A DNA stretch of 64,000 nucleotides from Betaproteobacteria bacterium GR16-43. GTDB taxonomy: Bacteria > Pseudomonadota > Gammaproteobacteria > Burkholderiales > Usitatibacteraceae. The stretch is from NCBI GenBank assembly GCA_001953215.1, contig CP019169.1, forward strand, positions 4,402,001-4,466,000, in the 5' to 3' direction. Below, piece after piece: positions 5,492-21,887 of the stretch. Numbering within the stretch: the stretch's first letter is position 1; the number at the start of each line of letters is the position of its first letter. The notes beneath the pieces are model-generated. The model was not told the origin of the DNA. It was given only the letters and a program-made list of their open reading frames with translations, and searched no databases. Made by a program: the position numbers and the translations under genes.

Positions 5492-6934
5492 ATGCGCCTC
5501 ACGTATCCCCGCTCCTTCCTCTCGCTGCTGCTGATCGGTTTCACGATCGTGGCCGCACCCCTGCTCTTCGCGCTCTTCTCCAACGCGGTCGCGTTCGAGC
5601 GTCTGGCCGCGCTCTCCGAACAAGCCGTCCTCTCGGCGGTCAAGGTGACGCAGGCGAGCCGCGCGCTCACCACCAACCTCACGGCGCTGGAGCGCTCGGC
5701 ACGCCAGTACGCGGTCGCGGGCGAAGCGACGTTCCTCGAGGCCTATCGCAGCAACCGCGCGACGTTCCAGGCGGCCGTGAAGCAACTGGAAGACATGCCG
5801 CTCACCGAGGAGCAGCGCGTCGAGCTCTCGGCGCTCTCGAAGCAGGAGGAAGCGATCAACCTCGCCATCAGCCGCTCGGCGCCGACGCCGGGCCTTTCGA
5901 TCCAGCTCGCCACCGACTTCGGCCAGCTCTCGACCAAGGCCCAGGCCCTGGTGCGCGAAGGCGACCTCGTCATCGACCAGGGCATCGAGGCGCTGCGGGT
6001 GCAGGCCGTGAAGTCGCGCAACCGCGTCTTCTGGCTGATGGTCGCCATGATCCCCACCGCCGTCCTCCTGATCGCGTCCTTCACCTTCCTGATCGCGCGC
6101 CCCATCTCGCAGGTGAGCGCCAGCATCCGCGGGCTGGGCGAAGGCGCCTTCGCGCGCCCGATCCGCATCGAGGGCCCGGGCGACATGGTGCGCCTGGGCG
6201 AGCAGCTCGACTGGCTGCGGGAACGCCTGGTGACCCTCGAAGCGCAGAAGACCCGTTTCCTGCAGCACCTCTCGCACGAACTGAAGACGCCGCTCACGGC
6301 GCTGCGCGAAGGGTCGGACCTGCTTTTCTCGGGCGTGGTCGGGAACCTGAACGCCGAGCAGCGCGAGATCGCGCGCATCCTGCAGGAGAACTCGATCGAG
6401 CTCCGGCGGTTGATCGAGGGCCTGCTCAACTACAGCGCGGTGCATCACCAGGCCTCCTACATCGACGCGAAGATCGTGCAACTGCGCGACGTGATCCGCC
6501 GCGTGGTGAACGACCGCAAGCTCGCCCTCGTCGCGAAGGGCATCCGCATCGAACTCAACTGCGAGAACGTGACCGCGTTCTGCGACGAGGAGAAGATCCG
6601 CGTGCTGCTGGACAACCTCATGTCGAATGCCGTCCGCTTCTCGCCCGAGCGCGGGATGATCTCGATCAAGCTCTACAAGGACCGCAACGATGCCGTCCTC
6701 GAAGTCCTCGACGAAGGCCCGGGCATCCCGACTCCGGAGCGCGACAAGGTCTTCGAGGCGTTCTATCGCGGCACCGATGCACCGGTGTCGGCCATCAAGG
6801 GCAGCGGCCTGGGCCTTTCGATCGTGAAGGAATACGTGCAGCTGCACCGGGGGCAAGTCGAGATCCTCGACGGGCCCGGCGCGCACTTTCGCATCCGCAT
6901 CCCGCGCAAGCGCGACATGGAGGAAGCGGCATGA
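5492..6934 (+). CDS. glrK: Sensor histidine kinase, GlrK/QseE type
   Basis: This 480-residue membrane histidine kinase opens a three-gene operon with the same order as enterobacterial glrK-qseG-glrR. It has an N-terminal transmembrane helix (about residues 8-30), a helical periplasmic domain, a second helix near residue 175-200, a HAMP linker, a HisKA dimerisation box with the phospho-acceptor H262 in HLSHELKTPLTAL, and a HATPase domain with DNLMSNAVRFSP (N box), DEGPGIP (G1) and GSGLGLSIV (G2). In enterobacteria GlrK phosphorylates GlrR in response to envelope signals. The assignment to GlrK rests mainly on the neighbours, since the kinase core alone is generic. The stop overlaps the start of the lipoprotein gene (ATGA). 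Confidence 0.88.
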   Translation: MRLTYPRSFLSLLLIGFTIVAAPLLFALFSNAVAFERLAALSEQAVLSAVKVTQASRALTTNLTALERSARQYAVAGEATFLEAYRSNRATFQAAVKQLEDMPLTEEQRVELSALSKQEEAINLAISRSAPTPGLSIQLATDFGQLSTKAQALVREGDLVIDQGIEALRVQAVKSRNRVFWLMVAMIPTAVLLIASFTFLIARPISQVSASIRGLGEGAFARPIRIEGPGDMVRLGEQLDWLRERLVTLEAQKTRFLQHLSHELKTPLTALREGSDLLFSGVVGNLNAEQREIARILQENSIELRRLIEGLLNYSAVHHQASYIDAKIVQLRDVIRRVVNDRKLALVAKGIRIELNCENVTAFCDEEKIRVLLDNLMSNAVRFSPERGMISIKLYKDRNDAVLEVLDEGPGIPTPERDKVFEAFYRGTDAPVSAIKGSGLGLSIVKEYVQLHRGQVEILDGPGAHFRIRIPRKRDMEEAA

Positions 6935-7494
6935 AGCGCGGCCTCGCGGCGCTCTCGCTCCTCGCGGGCATCCTGGCCGGCTGCGCGGTGCTCGATCCGG
7001 CGCCGGCCCCCGCCGTGGTCACGGTCCCGGCGGAACGCGCGCCCAGTTCCGCGGAAGAACTGGTCGCCTACCTGGCGCGCCTCCGGACCCTCGATGAACC
7101 GGCCCTGATCCTCGAAATCTCGCGCCAGCGCGAATTCGCCCGCCAGGCCCCGAATGGCCTGAACCGGGTGAAGCTGGGTCTCGCGCTCGCCGCCGCTCCC
7201 CAGGCCGACGATGCGGACCTGCTGGCCGTCGTCGAGCCGGTCGCCCGCGATTCGGCCCCTTCCGATGCGGACGTGCAGGCCATGGCAAGCTTCTTGCAGC
7301 ATCTGGCGATCGAGCGGCGCCGGCTCAAGGAAGGCGCCGCGGCGGCCGGTGCCCGATCGCGGGACGACCGGAAGGCGTACGAGTCGCAGCGGCAGCGCGC
7401 GGACACGCTCCAGGAGCGCAACGCGCAGTTGCAGCAGAAGCTCGACGCCCTGACCAACCTCGAGAAGAGCCTCTCGGGTCGCAGGGGAAACTGA
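6931..7494 (+). CDS. qseG: QseG-like outer-membrane lipoprotein
   Basis: The 187-residue product starts with a lipoprotein signal peptide ending in LAGC (lipidated C18), then a Pro/Ala linker, a helical middle and a coiled-coil-prone Gln/Arg/Glu-rich C-terminus (about 125-180). Its place between the kinase and the sigma54 regulator is exactly that of QseG in enterobacteria, where the lipoprotein binds the periplasmic part of the kinase and tunes its activity. Sequence resemblance to QseG cannot be verified here, so the name is positional. Start and stop both overlap the adjacent genes by four or one base, so the three proteins are probably made in a coupled ratio. Confidence 0.75.
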   Translation: MKRGLAALSLLAGILAGCAVLDPAPAPAVVTVPAERAPSSAEELVAYLARLRTLDEPALILEISRQREFARQAPNGLNRVKLGLALAAAPQADDADLLAVVEPVARDSAPSDADVQAMASFLQHLAIERRRLKEGAAAAGARSRDDRKAYESQRQRADTLQERNAQLQQKLDALTNLEKSLSGRRGN

Positions 7495-13035: not shown

Positions 13036-14315
13036 TTGGCGGGCGCCTCCCCGACATAGCTGATGCGATAGATCGCACCGGCGAAGTCGTCGGAGACGAG
13101 CATCGACCCGTCCTTCATCATCGCCACGTCCACCGGACGGCCGCGATACAGGCCGGTCTCGGCGTCGAGCCAGCCGTCGGCGAACACCTCGGTCTTGTCG
13201 GCCGTGCCGTCGGCCTTGAGGCTCGTGAACATCACGCGCGCGCCGATCGGCGTGGTGCGATTCCACGATCCATGCTGCGCGGAGAAGAGTCCGCCCTGGT
13301 ACTTCGCCGGGAATTTCTTGCCCGTGTAGAACGCGAGCCCGAGATCCGCGGCGTGCGCATCCATGTAGACCTGCGGGTTCGTCACGTTGTTCGGCAGCGG
13401 ATCCTTGTCGTAGCCGAACTCCGTGATGCGCGTCTTGCCCTGGATCCACGGGTAGCCGAAGAACTGCCCGGCCTGCGTGGCGCGGTTGATCTCGCCGGCC
13501 GGGATGTCGTCACCCATGCCGTCGGTCTGGTTGTCCGTGAACCAGAGCGTGTTGTCCTTCGGGTTGAACTCGAGGCCCACGGAGTTGCGGATGCCGCGTG
13601 CGTACACCTCGCGCTTGCTGCCGTCGAAGGCGTTCATGCGCACGATGCCGCCGATCCCGACCTCGTCGTAGAGCTTGAGCTTGTCCCGCGGCTGCACGTT
13701 GTACGGCTGGCCGAGCGTGATGTAGAGCATGCCGTCCTTGCCGATGCGGCAGGTGCGGGCACCGTGGTTGAACGACTCTTCTTCCACGGGGATCAGCTTG
13801 CCCTGCGGCACCACCTCGATCACCGCGACGTCCGGGCCTTCGTAGAAGAACTCGGCCGCGGGGAAATTCAGCACGCGGTTGTGGTCGACCACGACGAGGA
13901 AACCGTCCCGCGTCCAGCACACGCCGTTCGGAACGCTGAACTTGAGCGAGGGCGCGAACGCCTTCACTTCGTCGGCCACGCCGTCGCTGTTGCGGTCCGT
14001 CACGGCCCAGACCGTGGTCTTGCGGGTGCCCACGAACAACATGTTCGTCGACGGGGCCACCGCCATGTGGCGCGCGTCGGGGACGATGGCATAGAGATCG
14101 ATCCGGAATCCCGGCGGCAGCTTCACCCGCTTCAGGTTCTCGCGGATCGCCGTGGCGTTGGGACCGGTTTGCGGGACGGGCGGAATGTTCAGGTCCGTCC
14201 CCGAGACTTTCATCTGCTTCAACTTCTCGATGTTCGGCGCCTGGGCGGACGCGGGGATCGGGAATCCGATCGCGAGCGAGCCGACCAGTGCGCAGAGCGC
14301 AGCTTGGCGGTTCAT
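13032..14315 (-). CDS. PQQ-dependent soluble sugar (sorbosone/aldose) dehydrogenase
   Basis: A 427-residue periplasmic six-bladed beta-propeller of the soluble glucose/sorbosone dehydrogenase family. It has a signal peptide cut after ASA and the family motifs LPPGFRIDLYA, FNHGARTCRIG, ARGIRNSVGLEFNP, WFTDNQTDGMGDD and PAEINRATQ-like segments, with AQHGSWNRTTPIG near residue 340 carrying conserved PQQ-site positions. It should oxidise aldoses or aldehydes with PQQ and hand electrons to the cytochrome encoded next. The ATG at 14315 has GAGGAGAG upstream. It heads a minus-strand operon with the cytochrome and the PqqU-like receptor. No PQQ synthesis genes are in the window, so the enzyme may rely on imported cofactor. 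Confidence 0.85.
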   Translation of the reverse strand: MNRQAALCALVGSLAIGFPIPASAQAPNIEKLKQMKVSGTDLNIPPVPQTGPNATAIRENLKRVKLPPGFRIDLYAIVPDARHMAVAPSTNMLFVGTRKTTVWAVTDRNSDGVADEVKAFAPSLKFSVPNGVCWTRDGFLVVVDHNRVLNFPAAEFFYEGPDVAVIEVVPQGKLIPVEEESFNHGARTCRIGKDGMLYITLGQPYNVQPRDKLKLYDEVGIGGIVRMNAFDGSKREVYARGIRNSVGLEFNPKDNTLWFTDNQTDGMGDDIPAGEINRATQAGQFFGYPWIQGKTRITEFGYDKDPLPNNVTNPQVYMDAHAADLGLAFYTGKKFPAKYQGGLFSAQHGSWNRTTPIGARVMFTSLKADGTADKTEVFADGWLDAETGLYRGRPVDVAMMKDGSMLVSDDFAGAIYRISYVGEAPAK

Positions 14316-14538
14316 GGCGTTCTCTCCTCAGGATGACCCTATGGTTGGGCCTGCGTCCGATGCTACGCCTGCCCCTCCTCCCGTCAAACCTGCGGCACCA
14401 CCTCCGAGGTACGCGCGCTGGTTACTTTCCGGGAGCCTTCCTTACACCTGTATTACGCCATGTGATACGGCGCACAGGAGATTCCTCTTCGCATCAGTAG
14501 CATGCCGTCCAACGATAAGAAAAGGCTGGGAGGCCAAC

Positions 14539-15702
14539 TTGAAACTGCAACTGCTCGCGCTCGTGACCGCCTTGCTCTCACCCTTGATTGCGGTGAGCGC
14601 CGAGCCCGCGAAGCCCAGCGTCGCGAGCGCTGCCGCCTCCGCTCCCAAGGCGGGCGCCACGCCATTCCGCATCGGCAACAGCGGGCCTTCGAGCGGGCCC
14701 AACTCGGCCTCGATGCTGGAGCTCCTCGAGGGGGCGAATCTCTACTTCGACTGGGTGAACTCGCAAGGCGGCATCAAGGGCCGGCGAATCGAACTGCTTC
14801 AGCGCGACGACAACTTCGAAGTGCCGCGCACCGTGAAGAACGTCGAGAAGCTCGTGGACGAAGACAAGGTCGACGCCCTCCTGCTGGTCCGCGGAACCCC
14901 GCACAACGAGGCGATCCTGCCCGTCATCGACCGCGCCGGCGTTCCCCTGATCGGACCGTCCACGGGCGCGATGATCCTGCACAAGCCGATCAAGAAGAAC
15001 GTGTTCAACGTCCGCACCGCCTACCGCTCCGAGGCGACGAAGCTGGCGCACTTCCTGGCGCTCCTCGGCAAGCAGCGCATCAGCATGATCCACGTCGACG
15101 ATTCCTTCGGCGACGACGTCGCCCAGGGCATCGTGGCGGGCCTGGCCGAACGCCAGGTGACGCCGATCGGCGTCTACAAGTTCGACCGGAAGACCGTCGA
15201 TATCGCGAAGGCCATTCCCGAAGTGAAGAAGGCGAACCCGGATGCGATCGTGCTCATCGGCGCCGGCGCGGCGGTGGCCGCCGGCATCGAGGCCCTGCGC
15301 AAGCAGGGCGTCACGGCGCCGGTCGCGACCGTCTCGAACAACGCCTCGACGGGCTTCATCAAGTCGCTGGGCGGCAACGCGCTCGGCGTGATGGTGAGCC
15401 AGGTGTTCCCCGACGAGCGACTGGGCGACGTGCCCCTCGCGCGCGAAGCCTCGCGCCTCGCGAAGATGAAGAACATGCAGCTCACGCCCGCGATGATGGA
15501 AGGGTTCGCCGCCGCGAAGGTGACGACCGAAGCGCTGCGCCGCTGCGCGGGCACCTGCTCGCGCGCCGACCTGCACCGCGCGCTGGAGTCGCTCGACCTC
15601 GACCTGGGCGGCGTGCGCCTTGCCTATTCCCCGACGGACCACAGCGGCATCGAGTTCACCGACCTGTCGATCATCGACAAGAACGGCCAGTTCCGCCGCT
15701 AG
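14539..15702 (+). CDS. Branched-chain-amino-acid-type ABC substrate-binding protein (orphan)
   Basis: A 387-residue periplasmic binding protein of the Leu/Ile/Val type (type I fold). It has a signal peptide ending in VSA, then an Ala-rich stretch, and the mature core GNSGPSSGPNSASMLELLEGANLYF. Later segments include VSNNASTGFIKSLGGN and PAMMEGFAAAKV. TTG at 14539 is chosen for its GGGAGG Shine-Dalgarno seven bases upstream and the signal peptide that follows. No transport partners are encoded nearby. It is divergent from the sugar dehydrogenase operon across 223 bases in which I see no clear promoter. The stop codon TAG supplies the first base of the MITE-like element that follows. Confidence 0.82.
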   Translation: MKLQLLALVTALLSPLIAVSAEPAKPSVASAAASAPKAGATPFRIGNSGPSSGPNSASMLELLEGANLYFDWVNSQGGIKGRRIELLQRDDNFEVPRTVKNVEKLVDEDKVDALLLVRGTPHNEAILPVIDRAGVPLIGPSTGAMILHKPIKKNVFNVRTAYRSEATKLAHFLALLGKQRISMIHVDDSFGDDVAQGIVAGLAERQVTPIGVYKFDRKTVDIAKAIPEVKKANPDAIVLIGAGAAVAAGIEALRKQGVTAPVATVSNNASTGFIKSLGGNALGVMVSQVFPDERLGDVPLAREASRLAKMKNMQLTPAMMEGFAAAKVTTEALRRCAGTCSRADLHRALESLDLDLGGVRLAYSPTDHSGIEFTDLSIIDKNGQFRR

Positions 15703-15995
15703 GGAAGCTCTGATCAAGTCTCGGGGATGTGCGTTGCGGCAGGTGCGGATGGATGCAAGGCGCGCGGCGCAGCGAATAGCCAACCTATTCGCAAGCCAAG
15801 CAACGTAGCAGACGCCGCACCTGCCGCAACCCTGGCACGTCGACCGCACGCGCTCGCCGTCTGACGGGACGGGCGATTTCGGGCCGCTTCGTCGTTGCTC
15901 GACCTTGCAAGGTACCTACCTTGCCGCGGCCTCGCGCCTAGAATCGACCTCGAAATCGACCCGTCGCACACCCCGGGACTTGATCAGAGCTTCCC
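15702..15995. mobile_element. MITE-like element with nested inverted repeats
   Basis: A 294-bp non-coding element bounded by perfect 19-bp inverted repeats, GGGAAGCTCTGATCAAGTC (15702-15720) and its complement (15977-15995). The match continues inward for about 12 more bases with one mismatch and one indel. Inside are a 16-bp inverted repeat GTTGCGGCAGGTGCGG (15733-15748 and 15815-15830), an 8-bp hairpin GCGAATAG/CTATTCGC at its centre (15772-15792), and GCAAGGTA-CC-TACCTTGC (15907-15924). It contains no gene and fills exactly the space between the convergent binding-protein and iscX genes. No clear target-site duplication is visible. It could also act as a two-way terminator. Confidence 0.75.
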
Positions 15996-16000
15996 TGGGC

Positions 16001-16195
16001 CTACTCGGCCTCCTCGATCCAGGCCATCTGGATCGCCTCGAGGATCTTCTCTCCGGAGCGGTTCGGGTCGTCGTCGAAGCCGTCGAGACCCATCACCCAG
16101 TTGCGCAGGTCCACGAAGTTGATCGCCTTCGGGTCGACCTCGGGAAATTTCTCGTAGAGCGCGATCGCGATGTCCTGCGTGTCGACCCACTTCAT
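16001..16195 (-). CDS. iscX: Fe-S assembly adaptor IscX
   Basis: A 64-residue acidic protein starting [15 protein letters not shown] with the family pattern DPKAINFVDLRNWVMGL and DDPNRSGEKILEAIQMAWIEE. IscX binds IscS and modulates iron or frataxin access during cluster assembly. Its ATG overlaps the ferredoxin stop (ATGA). It is the last gene of the isc operon, and its stop lies five bases from the end of the MITE-like element. Confidence 0.93.
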   Translation of the reverse strand: MKWVDTQDIAIALYEKFPEVDPKAINFVDLRNWVMGLDGFDDDPNRSGEKILEAIQMAWIEEAE

Positions 16196-16533
16196 TTCTT
16201 GCCCTCCGACACCTGGTTCAGCGTGTACTTCGGAATCTCGATGGTGAGCGGTTGGCCGTCCACGCGCGCCTGGCAGGAGAGCCGCGACGTGAGCTCCAGG
16301 CCCCAGGCCTTGTCGAGGAGGTCGTCCTCCTTGTCGGTCGCGGGCTCCAGCGAATCGCCGCCCGCCCGGACGATCACGTGGCACGTCGTGCACGCGCAGG
16401 ACTTTTCGCACGCGTGCTCGATCTCGATGCCGTTCTCCAGCAGCGTGTCGCAGATCGAGCGGCCGGGCACGGCCTCGATCACCTTGCCCCCGGGGCAAAG
16501 CGTCTCGTGCGGAAGCACCGTGAGCTTCGTCAC
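16192..16533 (-). CDS. fdx: Isc-type [2Fe-2S] ferredoxin
   Basis: A 113-residue adrenodoxin-like ferredoxin with cluster ligands C42, C48, C51 and C87, the same numbering as E. coli Fdx, in the segments [12 protein letters not shown] and SRLSCQAR. It donates electrons to cluster assembly on IscU. It has a GTG start overlapping the hscA stop (GTGA) and an ATGA overlap to iscX. The C-terminus [14 protein letters not shown] is typical of the family. Confidence 0.95.
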
Positions 16534-18398
16534 TTGGATGCGACCTCGTCCAGGGTGCGGCCGCTGAAGGCGCCCGAGACCGCGCGATCCATGCGGCGCG
16601 TGGCAAAAGCTTCGCTGCCTTCGTTCAGGGCTTCGATCGCTGCCTTGATCGCGCGGTGATGGATGCCGCCGCGTGCCACGTCGAGGGCCGCCATGAGCGT
16701 GTCGATGGTGCCGCGCTCTTCCCTCGTGAGGAGTTCGCCATCCTTGGCGAGTGCCGCGCCCAACGCCGAAAGCATCGCTTCGGCCTCGACCCTTTGCTCG
16801 GCGAGCGCCCGCGCATCGCGATCGCCCTCGGCATGCTTGAAGCCTTCCTGCAGCATTCGCGCCACTTCGTCGTCGGTCAGGCCGTACGAGGGTTTCACGA
16901 CGATCGAGGTCTCGACGCCCGTCGTCTTCTCGCGCGCGGAAACGGAGAGCAGGCCATCGGCGTCGACCTGGAACGTGACCTGGATGCGCGCGGCCCCGGC
17001 CACCATCGGCGGAATGCCGCGCAGCTCGAAGCGGGCGAGCGAGCGGTTGTCGGCGACGAGCTCGCGCTCGCCCTGCACCACGTGGATCGCCATCGCGGAC
17101 TGGCCGTCCTTGAACGTGGTGAATTCCTGCGCGCGCGCCGCGGGAATGGTGGAGTTGCGCGGGATCACGCGCTCCACCAGCCCGCCCATCGTCTCCAGGC
17201 CGAGCGAAAGCGGAATCACGTCGAGCAGCAGCCAGTCGTCGCCCGTGCGGTTTCCCGCCAGCACGTTGGCCTGGATCGCCGCCCCGAGCGCCACGACCTG
17301 GTCGGGATCGAGATCCTTCAACGCCGGCTTGCCGAAGAGCTTCTCCACGCCGTCCTGCAGGTGCGGCATGCGCGTGGCGCCGCCCACCAACACGACGCCG
17401 TCGACTTCCTCCACGCGCAGGCCCGCGTCGCGCAACGCCTTGCGGGTCGGGGCGAACGTCTTCTGTACGAGGCCCGCCGTCATTTCCTGGAACTCCCGGC
17501 GCGTGAGGTGCAGGTGCAGTTTCTGCCCATAGGACAGCGTCACGTGGGCGTCGGCCTCGGGGGCGGTCGTGAGCGCCTCCTTCACCTGGCGGGCGGTCGC
17601 GAGGAGGCGGCGCGTGTCGCGCCCGGATGCATCCGCGAGCCGGTGGCGCGAGCGCCAGTGCGTCGCGATCGCCATGTCGAAGTCGTCGCCGCCCAGCGCG
17701 GAGTCGCCGTTGGTGGAGAGCACTTCGAACACCCCGCGCGTCAACCGCAGGATGGAGATGTCGAACGTGCCCCCGCCGAGGTCGAAGATCGCGAACGTGC
17801 CCTCGCTGCGATGGTCGAGGCCGTAGGCGATGGCCGCCGCGGTGGGCTCGTTCAGCAGGCGCAGCACATTGAGGCCCGCAAGGCGCGCGCTGTCCTTCGT
17901 GGCCTGGCGCTGCGAATCGTCGAAATACGCGGGCACCGTGACGACGGCCCCGAAGAGTTCGCCGCCCAGCGCGCGTTCGGCCCGTTCGCGCAGCACCTTC
18001 AGGATCTCCGCCGAGACCTGCACCGGCGAGCGCACGCCCGAGGAGGTCTCGATGCCGACCATGCCGGCTCCGCCGCGGAACTTGTACGGCAGCGCTCCGT
18101 ACTTCGCGACGTCGGCGACGCCGCGGCCCATGAAGCGCTTCACCGAGACGATCGTGTTCTCGGGGTCGTCGGCCTGCTCGGCGCGCGCCGCTTCGCCCAC
18201 CACGACCGCTCCGTCCGGAAGGTAGCGCACGATCGAGGGCAGCAAGGCCCGGCCGCCTTCATCGAGGATCATTTCCGCGGAGCCGCTGCGCACCGTGGCC
18301 ACGAGCGAGTGCGTCGTGCCCAGGTCGATGCCGACCGCGCGGCGATGCTGGTGCGGGTCCGGGGACTCGCCCGGCTCGGAGATCTGCAGCAGCGCCAT
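16530..18398 (-). CDS. hscA: Fe-S assembly chaperone HscA (Hsp70)
   Basis: A 622-residue Hsp70-family ATPase that, with HscB, releases clusters from IscU by binding its LPPVK motif. Hallmarks are [12 protein letters not shown] (about 23-34), the phosphate-loop [13 protein letters not shown], the adenosine motif [11 protein letters not shown], and a substrate-binding domain beginning near [13 protein letters not shown]. The length matches HscA rather than DnaK, and it lacks the DnaK-type C-terminal tail. It lies three bases downstream of the questin-oxidase-like gene instead of directly after hscB, which is unusual for isc operons. Confidence 0.95.
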
Positions 18399-18401
18399 CG
18401 G

Positions 18402-19373
18402 TCAGCAGTCCACCGTTTCCCGGAGCGCGTGGCACACGACGCTGCTCGCGACGCGCCGGTAGAGATCGTCGCCGTAGTACTCGCCTTCGTACCAACAGGA
18501 GTACACGAGCTTCACGTCGTGCTCGTCGCGGCACTGGATGGCTCGCGCCCGGATCTCGGGCCAATCGAGGGCATCGCTTCCCGGGAGCGCCACGCCTTCG
18601 ACGGCGGGACTGCCCGCCCCGACGTACGCCGCGACGACCGCCTGCCAGAGGTGCGCGATGGCGCGTCCCGGCTCGCTCGAATGCTCCGCGAGCAGACGGA
18701 AGGCGTGCGTTCCCGTGATGCCGTGCAGCACGGTGAAGTCCGACGACGCGGCATAGGCGCGCACCAGTGCGGCGGCCAGGGATGCCATCGAGAGTTTCGC
18801 GCGGTCGACCTGCGCGACGAGTTCACGAAACGATGCGTCCTTCGCGGCGTTCTGCAGCCGCTCGGCGATGTTCTTCCCCGGGGGACGCTTGGCAAACGGG
18901 GGATCGCGCGAGATGGCGGCGAGGACTTCGAGCGGCGTCTGGTGGCCCGTCAGTTCGGGCGGTTCCGGAAGCGGCTCGAAGGCGCGCGTCCAGTACGCGA
19001 GCGCATGGGCGACCTCGCGATCGCTCCCCGATTGCGTGGCATAGGCGGTGCGGATGGCACCGTGGAAAGCACCGCTGCCGAATCCGGCGGCAAGCCGGTC
19101 GATTTCCTCGCGAAGCACATAGACCGTGCCGGCGCGCGCGATGCGCACTTCGAAGCCTTCGACTGCGGCCTGGAAGGCGGGATCCTTGCCGATCGGCTCG
19201 AGGTGCGACTCGAGGTAGGCGTCCTCGAAACGCCCGAGCGTCGCGTCGGACGCCCCCATGTGGTCCAGCGCAATGAGGGCCATCGGCAAGTGGTTGGCGA
19301 GGTAGCCGCGATAGACAGCCCCGAACCGGTGGGCATCCTCGATGCGTTTCAGCGTGGCCGGGTTGACGCTCAT
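18402..19373 (-). CDS. Questin-oxidase-like protein inside the isc operon
   Basis: A 323-residue soluble protein with YRGYLANHLPMALIALDHMGAS near the N-terminus, a His/Arg-rich middle (LTGHQTPLEVLAAI, VLHGITGTHAFRLL), and C-terminal SCWYEGEYYGDDLYRR. I recognise the pattern as the questin oxidase family (DUF4243-like), which in fungi opens an anthraquinone ring but whose bacterial members have no known role. The ATG overlaps the hscB stop (ATGA) and the stop is three bases from hscA, so it is co-translated with the Fe-S chaperones. Several conserved histidines suggest metal or haem binding. The family call is from memory and a profile search would settle it. Confidence 0.6.
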   Translation of the reverse strand: MSVNPATLKRIEDAHRFGAVYRGYLANHLPMALIALDHMGASDATLGRFEDAYLESHLEPIGKDPAFQAAVEGFEVRIARAGTVYVLREEIDRLAAGFGSGAFHGAIRTAYATQSGSDREVAHALAYWTRAFEPLPEPPELTGHQTPLEVLAAISRDPPFAKRPPGKNIAERLQNAAKDASFRELVAQVDRAKLSMASLAAALVRAYAASSDFTVLHGITGTHAFRLLAEHSSEPGRAIAHLWQAVVAAYVGAGSPAVEGVALPGSDALDWPEIRARAIQCRDEHDVKLVYSCWYEGEYYGDDLYRRVASSVVCHALRETVDC

Positions 19374-19912
19374 CGCGCTTCCTCCTCCTCGTGGAGCAGC
19401 TCCAGCGCGTCGTCGATTTCCTCGTCGAGCTTCTCGAAGAAGCGGAGCTTGCGAACCAGCGAGCAGCCCGCGTCGTAGTTGTGGTCGGCATCGAGCGCGC
19501 GGGCCAGCATGCGCAGCATGTCCTTGCGGCTTTCCTCGAGCGTCGAGCGCAGCCCCTCAAGGCCCGGAGCATCGCGCTCCGAGCGCGCGGTGGCCGCCGC
19601 TTCGCGCAGCTCCATCTGCTCCATCAGGAAATCCGCGGGCATGGACGTATTGGTTTCCTCGCCGGTGTCGAAGCCCTTCAGCAGCAGGAGGTAGCGGGCG
19701 CGGCCCACCGGATCCTTCAGCGTGCGGTACGCCTCGTTGGCGCGCGTGGCCCACTGCATGGCGAGGCGCTTCTCGGTGCCGGAGGCGGAGGCGAACCGGT
19801 CGGGGTGCACGCGGGACTGCAGGTCCCGGTAGGCGCGCTCGAGCTTTTCCGCGTCGATCGCGAAGGCGATCGGCAGGCCCATCAGCTCGAAATGGTTCGC
19901 GCCCTCATTCAA
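19370..19912 (-). CDS. hscB: Fe-S assembly J-domain co-chaperone HscB
   Basis: A 180-residue DnaJ-like protein that delivers IscU to HscA and stimulates its ATPase. The J domain carries the catalytic H36-P37-D38 motif in SRVHPDRFA, followed by the C-terminal three-helix IscU-binding domain ([12 protein letters not shown] onward). Its ATG at 19912 overlaps the iscA stop, and its stop overlaps the start of the next gene. The C-terminus is unusually acidic (LLHEEEEAR). Confidence 0.95.
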
Positions 19913-20232
19913 ACGTTGAACGACTCACCGCAGCCGCAGCGATCCTTCTCGTTCGGGTTGTTGAACTTGAACCCCTCGTTCAGGCCTTCCTTCACGAAGT
20001 CGAGCTCGGTGCCGTCCAGGTAGGCGAGGCTCTTCGGGTCGATCAGCACCTTCACGCCGTTCGACTCGAACTCCTGGTCGCCGTCCTGCGTGGCGTCGGC
20101 AAACTCGAGCTTGTAGGCAAGCCCGGAGCAACCGGTGGTTTTCACGCCCAGACGGAGCCCAATGCCTTTTCCGCGTTTCTCGATATAGCGCTGGACGTGA
20201 TCCGCGGCAGCCGTGGTGAGAGTAACGGCCAT
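19909..20232 (-). CDS. iscA: A-type Fe-S carrier IscA
   Basis: A 107-residue A-type carrier with the three invariant cysteines at the E. coli positions C35, C99 and C101 (TTGCSGLAY and RCGCGESF). It accepts clusters from IscU and passes them to apoproteins, particularly 4Fe-4S enzymes such as the class I fumarase at the left edge. It starts one base after the iscU stop. Confidence 0.96.
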
Positions 20233-20233
20233 G

Positions 20234-20665
20234 TCAGTCCGCCGCCCTCAGACCCGGTTTCTCCGTGGTCTCCGTGGTCTCCGTGGTTCCATGCTTTTTT
20301 CGGTAGTCGGCGATCGCCGCCTTGATGGCGTCCTCGGCGAGGATCGAGCAATGGATCTTCACCGGCGGCAGCGCCAGCTCCTCGGCGATCTGCGTGTTGC
20401 GGATCGAGCCCGCCTCGTCGAGCGTCTTGCCCTTCACCCACTCGGTGACGAGCGACGACGACGCGATGGCCGAGCCGCAGCCATACGTCTTGAATTTCGC
20501 GTCCTGGATGCGTCCGTCCGCCCCGACCTTGATCTGGAGCTTCATCACGTCGCCGCACGCGGGCGCGCCGACCATGCCGGTGGCCACGCCCGCCTCGTCC
20601 TTCTGGAAGGACCCGACGTTGCGGGGGTTCTCGTAGTGGTCGATGACTTTTTCGCTATAGGCCAT
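20234..20665 (-). CDS. iscU: Fe-S scaffold IscU with repeat-derived C-terminal tail
   Basis: A 143-residue scaffold with cluster ligands C37, C63 and C106, D39, and the HscA-recognition motif LPPVK at 99-103. Family members usually end about residue 125-130. Here the chain continues from H125 with [19 protein letters not shown]. That tail is encoded by three tandem copies of a 9-bp unit (coding strand ACCACGGAG), related to a dispersed repeat also seen upstream of phnW. The Thr/Glu tail is thus probably a late addition and should be disordered. The gene sits 10 bases after iscS and one base before iscA. Confidence 0.95.
20258..20300. repeat. Triplicated CTCCGTGGT unit at the iscU 3' end
   Basis: Plus-strand CTCCGTGGT is repeated three times in tandem, preceded by TTT and followed by TCCATGCTTTTTT. 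A diverged copy with CTCTGCGGT/TCTGCGGT units and the same TTCATGCTTTTT tail occurs at 46739-46782. The similarity over about 43 bases at two unlinked loci indicates a dispersed short repeat; here it is read through as the last codons of iscU. Confidence 0.7.
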
Positions 20666-20675
20666 AGGTGACTCC

Positions 20676-21887
20676 TCAGTGTGCTGCCCACTGGACGGAA
20701 TTGAGATCGACGCCGTCCTTGAACATTTCCCAGAGCGGGCTCATCTCGCGCAGCTTGCCGATGCGCTCGCGAAGGAGCTTGACCGCGTAGTCGATGTCCG
20801 CCTCGGTCGTGAAGCGCCCGAGGGTGAAGCGAATGGAGCTGTGCGCCAGTTCGTCGTTGCGGCCCAGGGCACGCAGGACGTACGAAGGCTCGAGCGAAGC
20901 CGACGTGCACGCGGAACCCGAGGACACCGCGAGCTCCTTGATGCCCATGATCAGCGACTCGCCCTCGACGAAGTTGAAGCTCACGTTCAGGTTGTGCGGC
21001 ACGCGCCGGTCGAGGTCGCCGTTCACGTAGATCTCTTCCATGCCCTGCAAGCCCGTGAGCAGCCGGTCCCGCAGCATGCGGATGCGCTCGCCCTCGGTCG
21101 CCATTTCCTCGCGCGCGATGCGGAAGGCCTCGCCCATGCCCACGATCTGGTGCGTGGGCAGCGTGCCCGAGCGGAAACCCTTCTCGTGGCCGCCGCCGTG
21201 CATCTGCGCTTCCAGGCGCACGCGGGGCTTGCGGCGGACATAGAGCGCGCCGATGCCCTTCGGGCCGTACGTCTTGTGCGCGGAGAAACTCATCAGGTCG
21301 ACCTTGAGCTTCTCGAGGTCGATCGGCGCCTTGCCGGTGGACTGCGCGGCATCGACGTGGAAGATGATGCCCTTCGCCCGGCAGATCTCGCCGATCTCGG
21401 CGATGGGCTGGATCACGCCGATCTCGTTGTTCACGTGCATGATCGAGACCACGATCGTGTCGGGCCGCAGCGCGGCCTTGAACACTTCGAGGTCGAGCAG
21501 TCCATCCGGTTTCGGGTCGAGGTACGTGACTTCGAATCCCTGGCGCTCGAGCTCGCGCATCGTGTCGAGCACGGCCTTGTGCTCGGTCTTCATCGTGACG
21601 AGGTGCTTGCCCTTCGCCTTGTAGAAGTACGCGGCGCCCTTGATCGCGAGGTTGTCGCTCTCGGTGGCGCCCGAGGTCCACACGATTTCCTTGGCGTCGG
21701 CGTTCACCAGCTTCGCCACTTCGACGCGCGCGTTCTCGACCGCCTGCTCGGCCTCCCAGCCGAACGCATGGCTGCGCGAGGCGGGGTTGCCGAACTGCTC
21801 GGTGAGCCACGGGATCATCGCCTGCGCCACGCGCGGGTCGACCGGCGTGGTGGCCGAATAGTCGAGGTAGATGGGGCGATCTCTCAT
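20676..21887 (-). CDS. iscS: Cysteine desulfurase IscS
   Basis: A 403-residue PLP enzyme supplying sulfane sulfur for Fe-S clusters and tRNA thiolation. The PLP lysine lies in [12 protein letters not shown] and the persulfide cysteine in [17 protein letters not shown]; the latter is the long loop of group I desulfurases. The N-terminus [16 protein letters not shown] and C-terminus [16 protein letters not shown] match proteobacterial IscS closely. It lies four bases downstream of iscR in the operon. Confidence 0.97.

Follow-up and report, generated by a model that had tools for sequence, protein, structure and literature searches.

What fills the gap between two convergent genes in a 64,000-nucleotide stretch of the genome of Betaproteobacteria bacterium GR16-43 (contig CP019169.1, positions 4,402,001 to 4,466,000; hereafter the window)? 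The first-pass annotation had described a 294-bp MITE-like element here and offered two readings, a non-autonomous transposon or a structured terminator. The element is best explained as an IS5-type MITE carrying paired hairpin modules, a reading to which we assign a probability of about 0.85. There is good support for placing it among the IS5-type MITEs; what is new is the paired structured module. The gene reading into the element is one that we take to encode a solute-binding protein. The neighbour on the other side is presumably IscX-like and belongs to what we assume to be an Isc cluster adjoining the element (16001-21887, minus strand: iscX-like, ferredoxin, hscA, hscB, iscA, iscU and iscS). 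Coordinates are given in Table 1.

Table 1. The element, its parts and its flanking genes, in window coordinates.
Feature	Position	Strand	Basis or remark
Element, IS5-style limits	15703-15994		292 bp, from target copies, genome copies and empty sites
Left 4-bp target copy, CTAG	15699-15702		read in sequence; single CTAG in G002/G004 empty sites
Left terminal inverted repeat	15702-15732	+	repeat search
Module A, sense on plus strand	15733-15830	+	16-bp outer arms around a conserved inner core, with an apical stem of 8 bp
Inter-module spacer, 37 bp	15831-15867		model match limits
Module B, diverged inverse copy of A	15868-15965	-	covariance-model matches
Right terminal inverted repeat	15965-15995	-	repeat search
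Right target copy, CTGG	15995-15998		decayed CTAG, by comparison with empty sites
Upstream gene reading into element	14152-15702	+	start is the mechanical ORF start; TAG stop at 15700-15702
Convergent neighbour, 64 aa	16001-16195	-	ORF list and relatives' orthologues; stop CTA at 16001-16003

Most of the structure first described here was confirmed. The 19-bp terminal repeats are perfect (GGGAAGCTCTGATCAAGTC at 15702-15720 on the plus strand and 15977-15995 on the minus strand) and extend to about 31 bp with two differences, one mismatch and one gap. The inner repeat pairs at 16/16 positions (15733-15748/15815-15830) and contains the hairpin reported for it (apical stem 15772-15779/15785-15792). 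The 8-bp palindrome is also present (15907-15914/15917-15924) but is not a separate feature: it forms the apex of another complete module. There is no credible gene inside, an 85-aa mechanical ORF notwithstanding, and the first G of the repeat is the last base of the upstream TAG stop. The limits, however, required revision. The repeats do lie at 15702-15995, but an IS5-type insertion gives an element of 292 bp rather than 294 bp, and the gap is not filled exactly, as 5 bp (15996-16000) separate position 15995 from the stop of the next gene. The predicted fold is very stable (z -12.5 on the plus strand and -10.4 on the minus strand), with none of 200 shuffles equally stable.

The host genome (G000) contains two full copies (100% and 97% identity over 294 bp), one 207-bp copy in which module A has collapsed between its arms to an 11-nt stub (GTTGCCGCAAC), and one lone end. 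Two more matches to the end pattern carry 3 mismatches each. The lone end (L015, G000:C1:4299989-4300007) has 1 mismatch and borders on CTAG; no second end and no modules were observed with it. Five elements of 81-87% identity are found in the same-genus genome G004, the full ones being 300 bp. The iscX-like gene is present in four of five same-genus genomes, with no match in G003. This gene faces the same convergent gene in G002 and G004 as in the window, with one CTAG and no element at the junction, as read by eye. G001 and G005 are uninformative on the empty site, because a different sequence follows their iscX-like gene. The element is thus present at unrelated sites in the genome and empty sites exist in two relatives; it is not a single copy fixed at this locus across the genus. 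It moved into this locus in the past.

These observations bear directly on the proposal of a local structured terminator. A site between convergent genes and a very stable fold would suit such a terminator, but the stem lacks a T run, the orthologous sites are empty and further copies lie elsewhere. No stem with a T run was found in the element, which leaves an intrinsic terminator unsupported. As a purely local feature the terminator is refuted, and we regard the proposal as extremely unlikely. A non-autonomous transposon, by contrast, is borne out by the copies, the empty sites, the target copies and the existence of full insertion sequences (ISs) with the same ends.

The target copies point to the type of transposon. 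CTAG/CTAG flanks were found at L002, L003 and L045, with non-identical copies in the window (CTAG/CTGG), L019 (CTAG/CTAC) and L035 (TTAG/CTAG). The published account of IS5-family ISs gives their target as Py-T-A-Pu, of which CTAG is the commonest (PMC5493358); such ISs are about 1.2 kb and encode a transposase, whereas the window element has none. An end-pattern scan of named genome contigs gave at least 117 stretches, and the 117 listed were all examined for paired ends. The 26 end pairs among these 117 listed stretches comprise 1 of 100-149 bp, 16 of 150-199 bp, 2 of 200-249 bp, 2 of 250-299 bp and 5 of 1164-1168 bp. The last five (5/117 listed loci) are full ISs with the window's ends and CTA/TAG flanks. 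Transposases of the two tested (L116 and L130) match NCBIfam IS5 well over the cut-off, as does that of a similar IS on a viral contig (L055; E 1e-98 to 1e-104 for the three). A transposase with the same ends, which the first-pass annotation had proposed to look for, therefore does exist, in ISs of other genomes, and it is of the IS5 family. No IS5-type transposase was found in the host genome, and a match was obtained in 4 of the 20 genomes searched. Therefore, the host copies look like relics and their present mobility is unsupported.

Other arrangements of ends and interiors were also seen. At L116 a two-module element (5900-6102) directly adjoins a full IS5-type IS (6135-7298), the module pair having its own ends, different from those of the IS. 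At L130 (16-834) the IS resembles the MITE in starting at a gene's stop codon (a 272-aa ORF ending at 834). At L150 (7793-7925) the window's IS5-type ends surround a quite different interior containing GCCCTGAGCTTGTCGAAGGG, presumably a common proteobacterial repeat. Genome G064 contains IS5-family ISs (L332, L328) with ends GGCAACGCTGAACAAGC and target copies TGAG/TGAG and TTAG/TTAG, and it carries modules behind ends other than these. The PF05598 transposases of G052 and G098 were rejected as partners, as no matching ends were found around them. For the end class GGGCTCGTTAATGAATAA (15 genomes), no IS-sized pair of its own was found among 44 end pairs: 29 are of 264-268 bp, 3 of 166-167 bp, 7 of 45-53 bp and 4 of other lengths below 200 bp, while the last one, of 2093 bp, surrounds an entire element. 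The 45-53-bp end-to-end forms (G041:C73, G169:C20/C25, G276:C31/C71/C100, G361:C22) are too short to hold a module and look as though they had lost the hairpins by deletion.

TA adjoins most ends, and this is what a TA-target MITE of the IS630/Tc1 kind would show. Such a reading may hold for some other end classes, which flank TA or TTA alone. However, it is very unlikely for the window element, whose ends are common to IS5-type ISs; moreover, the flanks at L002, L003 and L045 are CTAG/CTAG, and no DDE_3 transposase was found in 6 genomes.

The interior of the element is two inverted copies of one hairpin module of about 100 nt, which had not been noticed in the first-pass annotation. The first covariance model (R1) matches the element twice, at module A (94.2 bits, E 1.3e-20) and, with the strand reversed, in its second half (48.7 bits, E 4e-9). 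Between the two ends, module A is thus followed by the spacer and by module B in inverse orientation. Module B scores 56.7 bits with the second model (R2). The first alignment (20 modules) contains a 40-pair hairpin in which 90.9% of cells pair and 25/40 pairs change on both sides, with a covariation of 0.456 versus 0.122 when shuffled and at most 0.076 when slid. A search gave 191 matches at E 0.001 across 100 loci. In alignment A2, made of the best 150 of these 191, 93.5% of cells pair and covariation reaches 0.798 versus 0.177 shuffled, values that lean to the structure because the alignment was fitted to it. As judged from these alignments, the module appears to be a conserved structure, its compensatory changes exceeding those of the shuffled and slid controls. 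Both modules are in the A2 list at 46 of the 100 loci, a minimum for paired modules, and are mostly 7 nt apart. The spacer measures 37 bp in the window and 39 in L019, compared with 7-10 nt in almost all of the remaining elements with two modules. The terminal repeats scored well in 79 of the 100 loci, and the model also matches elements of about 160 bp that combine the window's ends with one module (L168, L114). No Rfam model reached its gathering score; the only matches, to Giardia U1 and microRNA models, fell short of it. An integron attC site was considered and dropped on account of the outer ends GTTG...CAAC being in reverse reading order.

An ordinary decayed IS5 derivative, in which the ends enclose leftover filler and the interior is unselected, would account for ends and a target that match IS5-type ISs, and MITEPsy1 is a known small IS5-type MITE (PMC3189936). 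However, the interior is homologous across elements with different ends, and the covariation is very strong. Moreover, the core is more conserved than the ends: in 51 representatives, identity is 79% in two core stretches, 43% in the ends (36% shuffled) and 32% in the outer arms, a contrast that arises partly from hit selection, as the model search favours a conserved core. The unpaired A31, A32, A85, A97, A98 and C99 are 92-100% conserved. Simple decay of an IS5-family IS is thus an unlikely origin of this interior.

Matches to the model were found in 143/399 genomes of the order and 99/369 of the class, and to the second model in 107/398 genomes of the phylum, these three samples overlapping. 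Specificity rests on E-values and on the 291/398 phylum genomes without a match, several listed ones of which are 6-7.8 Mb. Copy numbers are lower bounds, since 10-11 candidates were scored per genome; one complete 2.7-Mb genome contains 41 module matches. Carriers include a Zetaproteobacteria MAG (L131), Pseudomonadales, Chromatiales and Sedimenticola MAGs, and plasmids of Pseudomonas aeruginosa PA83 and Azotobacter chroococcum. The P. aeruginosa plasmid (NZ_CP017294.1) has an unannotated two-module element (L326:2483-2690) between acyl-CoA dehydrogenase and CoA-transferase genes, approximately 2 kb from an IS1071 transposase. Searched against plasmids and phages, the window element gave no match; a gamma-type element (L305) matched 4 plasmid records.

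Whether the hairpin is maintained as RNA or as DNA can be approached through the wobble pairs of each module. In the model alignment, G-U:A-C counts, omitting the conserved U-G pair of column 23, are 97:28 in module A (57 clusters) and 50:26 in module B (36 clusters). These strand counts use 149 rows, one that repeated another module on the opposite strand having been dropped. Counted without the model alignment, though with module limits and strands that are still model-derived, the inner helix gives 29:2 in A (57/62 representatives) and 12:1 in B (25/37), each on its own strand. As A and B are on opposite strands, a one-strand mutation bias cannot explain both excesses. The excess would fit single-strand folding, which may also take place as single-stranded DNA. 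The outer arms have no significant bias, whether counted over 12 bp (A 17:11, B 9:9) or 15 bp (A 26:13, p 0.053; B 11:6), and the apical stem is at 16:6 in A and in the opposite direction in B (6:13). The lack of significant bias in the outer arms and the reversed apical stem of B count against our best explanation. The perfect outer arms could be kept by copying from arm to arm, rather than by selection on RNA.

DNA mechanics alone might maintain the modules, with template switching between arms keeping the palindromes and the core serving as a DNA-binding or recombination site. The outer arms, with no significant bias, agree with this, as do the copy with module A reduced to an 11-nt stub, as expected of hairpin deletion, and the existence of end-to-end forms (7/44 pairs). 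However, template switching should have removed the conserved mismatched A31, A32, A97, A98 and C99 (92-100%), and the G-U bias of the inner helix tracks the own strand of each module. We consider DNA mechanics a serious possibility, short of even odds. An RNA role of the modules, taken alone, is likewise held tentatively; as the role of the modules we favour a 3′ RNA element that acts in either orientation.

A composition-only gene call around 78 elements identified, at 56 flanks, the stop of a gene that points at the element. The stop lies exactly at the junction in 22 of these, before the element in 24, and 10 genes run in. Stop codons are therefore a favoured but non-exclusive site. Junction stops at CTAG are real, because CTAG within a gene cannot place TAG in frame; for end classes that flank TA alone they are less certain. 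Of the 78 elements, 12 lie between convergent genes, 37 have one gene reading in and one out, 12 are divergent and 17 have a side uncalled. At L003 the insertion is on a CTAG in which the stops of two convergent genes overlap, and neither stop has been lost. Insertion into CTAG, often carrying a TAG stop, restores the stop.

The favoured role can be set out as a sequence of steps. An IS5-family transposase, acting in trans, would recognise the terminal repeats and paste the element into CTAG (or YTAR), duplicating 4 bp. CTAG would then stand on both sides, restoring the stop for genes on either flank. Because both modules point inward, each from the end next to it, a transcript entering on either side would first meet a sense hairpin, which may fold in the read-through RNA of the upstream gene. 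Once folded, it may act as an orientation-independent 3′ RNA element that is stabilising, blocking or RNase-processed, and this would make insertions tolerable or even useful. A broader proposal is a phylum-wide family of mobile RNA modules, in which a hairpin of about 100 nt travels as an inverted pair behind exchangeable transposon ends and stop-codon insertion gives any incoming gene the same folded 3′ regulator; this we regard as speculative and rather doubtful.

Known small elements resemble this one in part. MITEPsy1 of Pseudomonas syringae, which is reported to transpose, has IS5-type ends (GGAAGGTCTGAAAAAGCC), a CTAG or YTAA target and a 4-nt duplication, as does the window element, but is described as 100 nt with 18-nt ends, in an account in which paired hairpin modules do not figure (PMC3189936). 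QMITE1 and QMITE2 of Coxiella are also small and give stable folded transcripts, some yielding small RNAs; they differ in their direct repeats as described, and QMITE1 is reported to have no relatives in other genomes (PMC5896051, PMC10969869). NEMIS/Correia, ERIC and YPAL are small mobile MITEs which fold as RNA and are said to influence neighbouring gene expression, but in these accounts each is tied to one bacterial group (PMC3733652, PMC2229807). Pae-1 of P. aeruginosa is an intergenic pair of adjacent stem-loops; however, its description gives 84 nt and does not mention terminal repeats (PMC2267715). No description of the present module family was found in the open-access literature, which is weak evidence of novelty, as subscription papers and preprints lay outside the scope of the search.

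In the accounts cited here, bacterial MITEs are described per species or genus, and it is their ends that connect them to a transposase. In the present family the interior is conserved and the ends vary, across a class and beyond. This pattern points to selection for some function within a kind of element that is generally regarded as junk, and the covariance model allows the module to be found elsewhere. With stop codons as the target, there is a simple explanation of why the spread of such elements between convergent genes leaves those genes intact. If the hairpin acts in RNA, one mobile part could, across many genomes, have reset the 3′ ends of a large number of genes.
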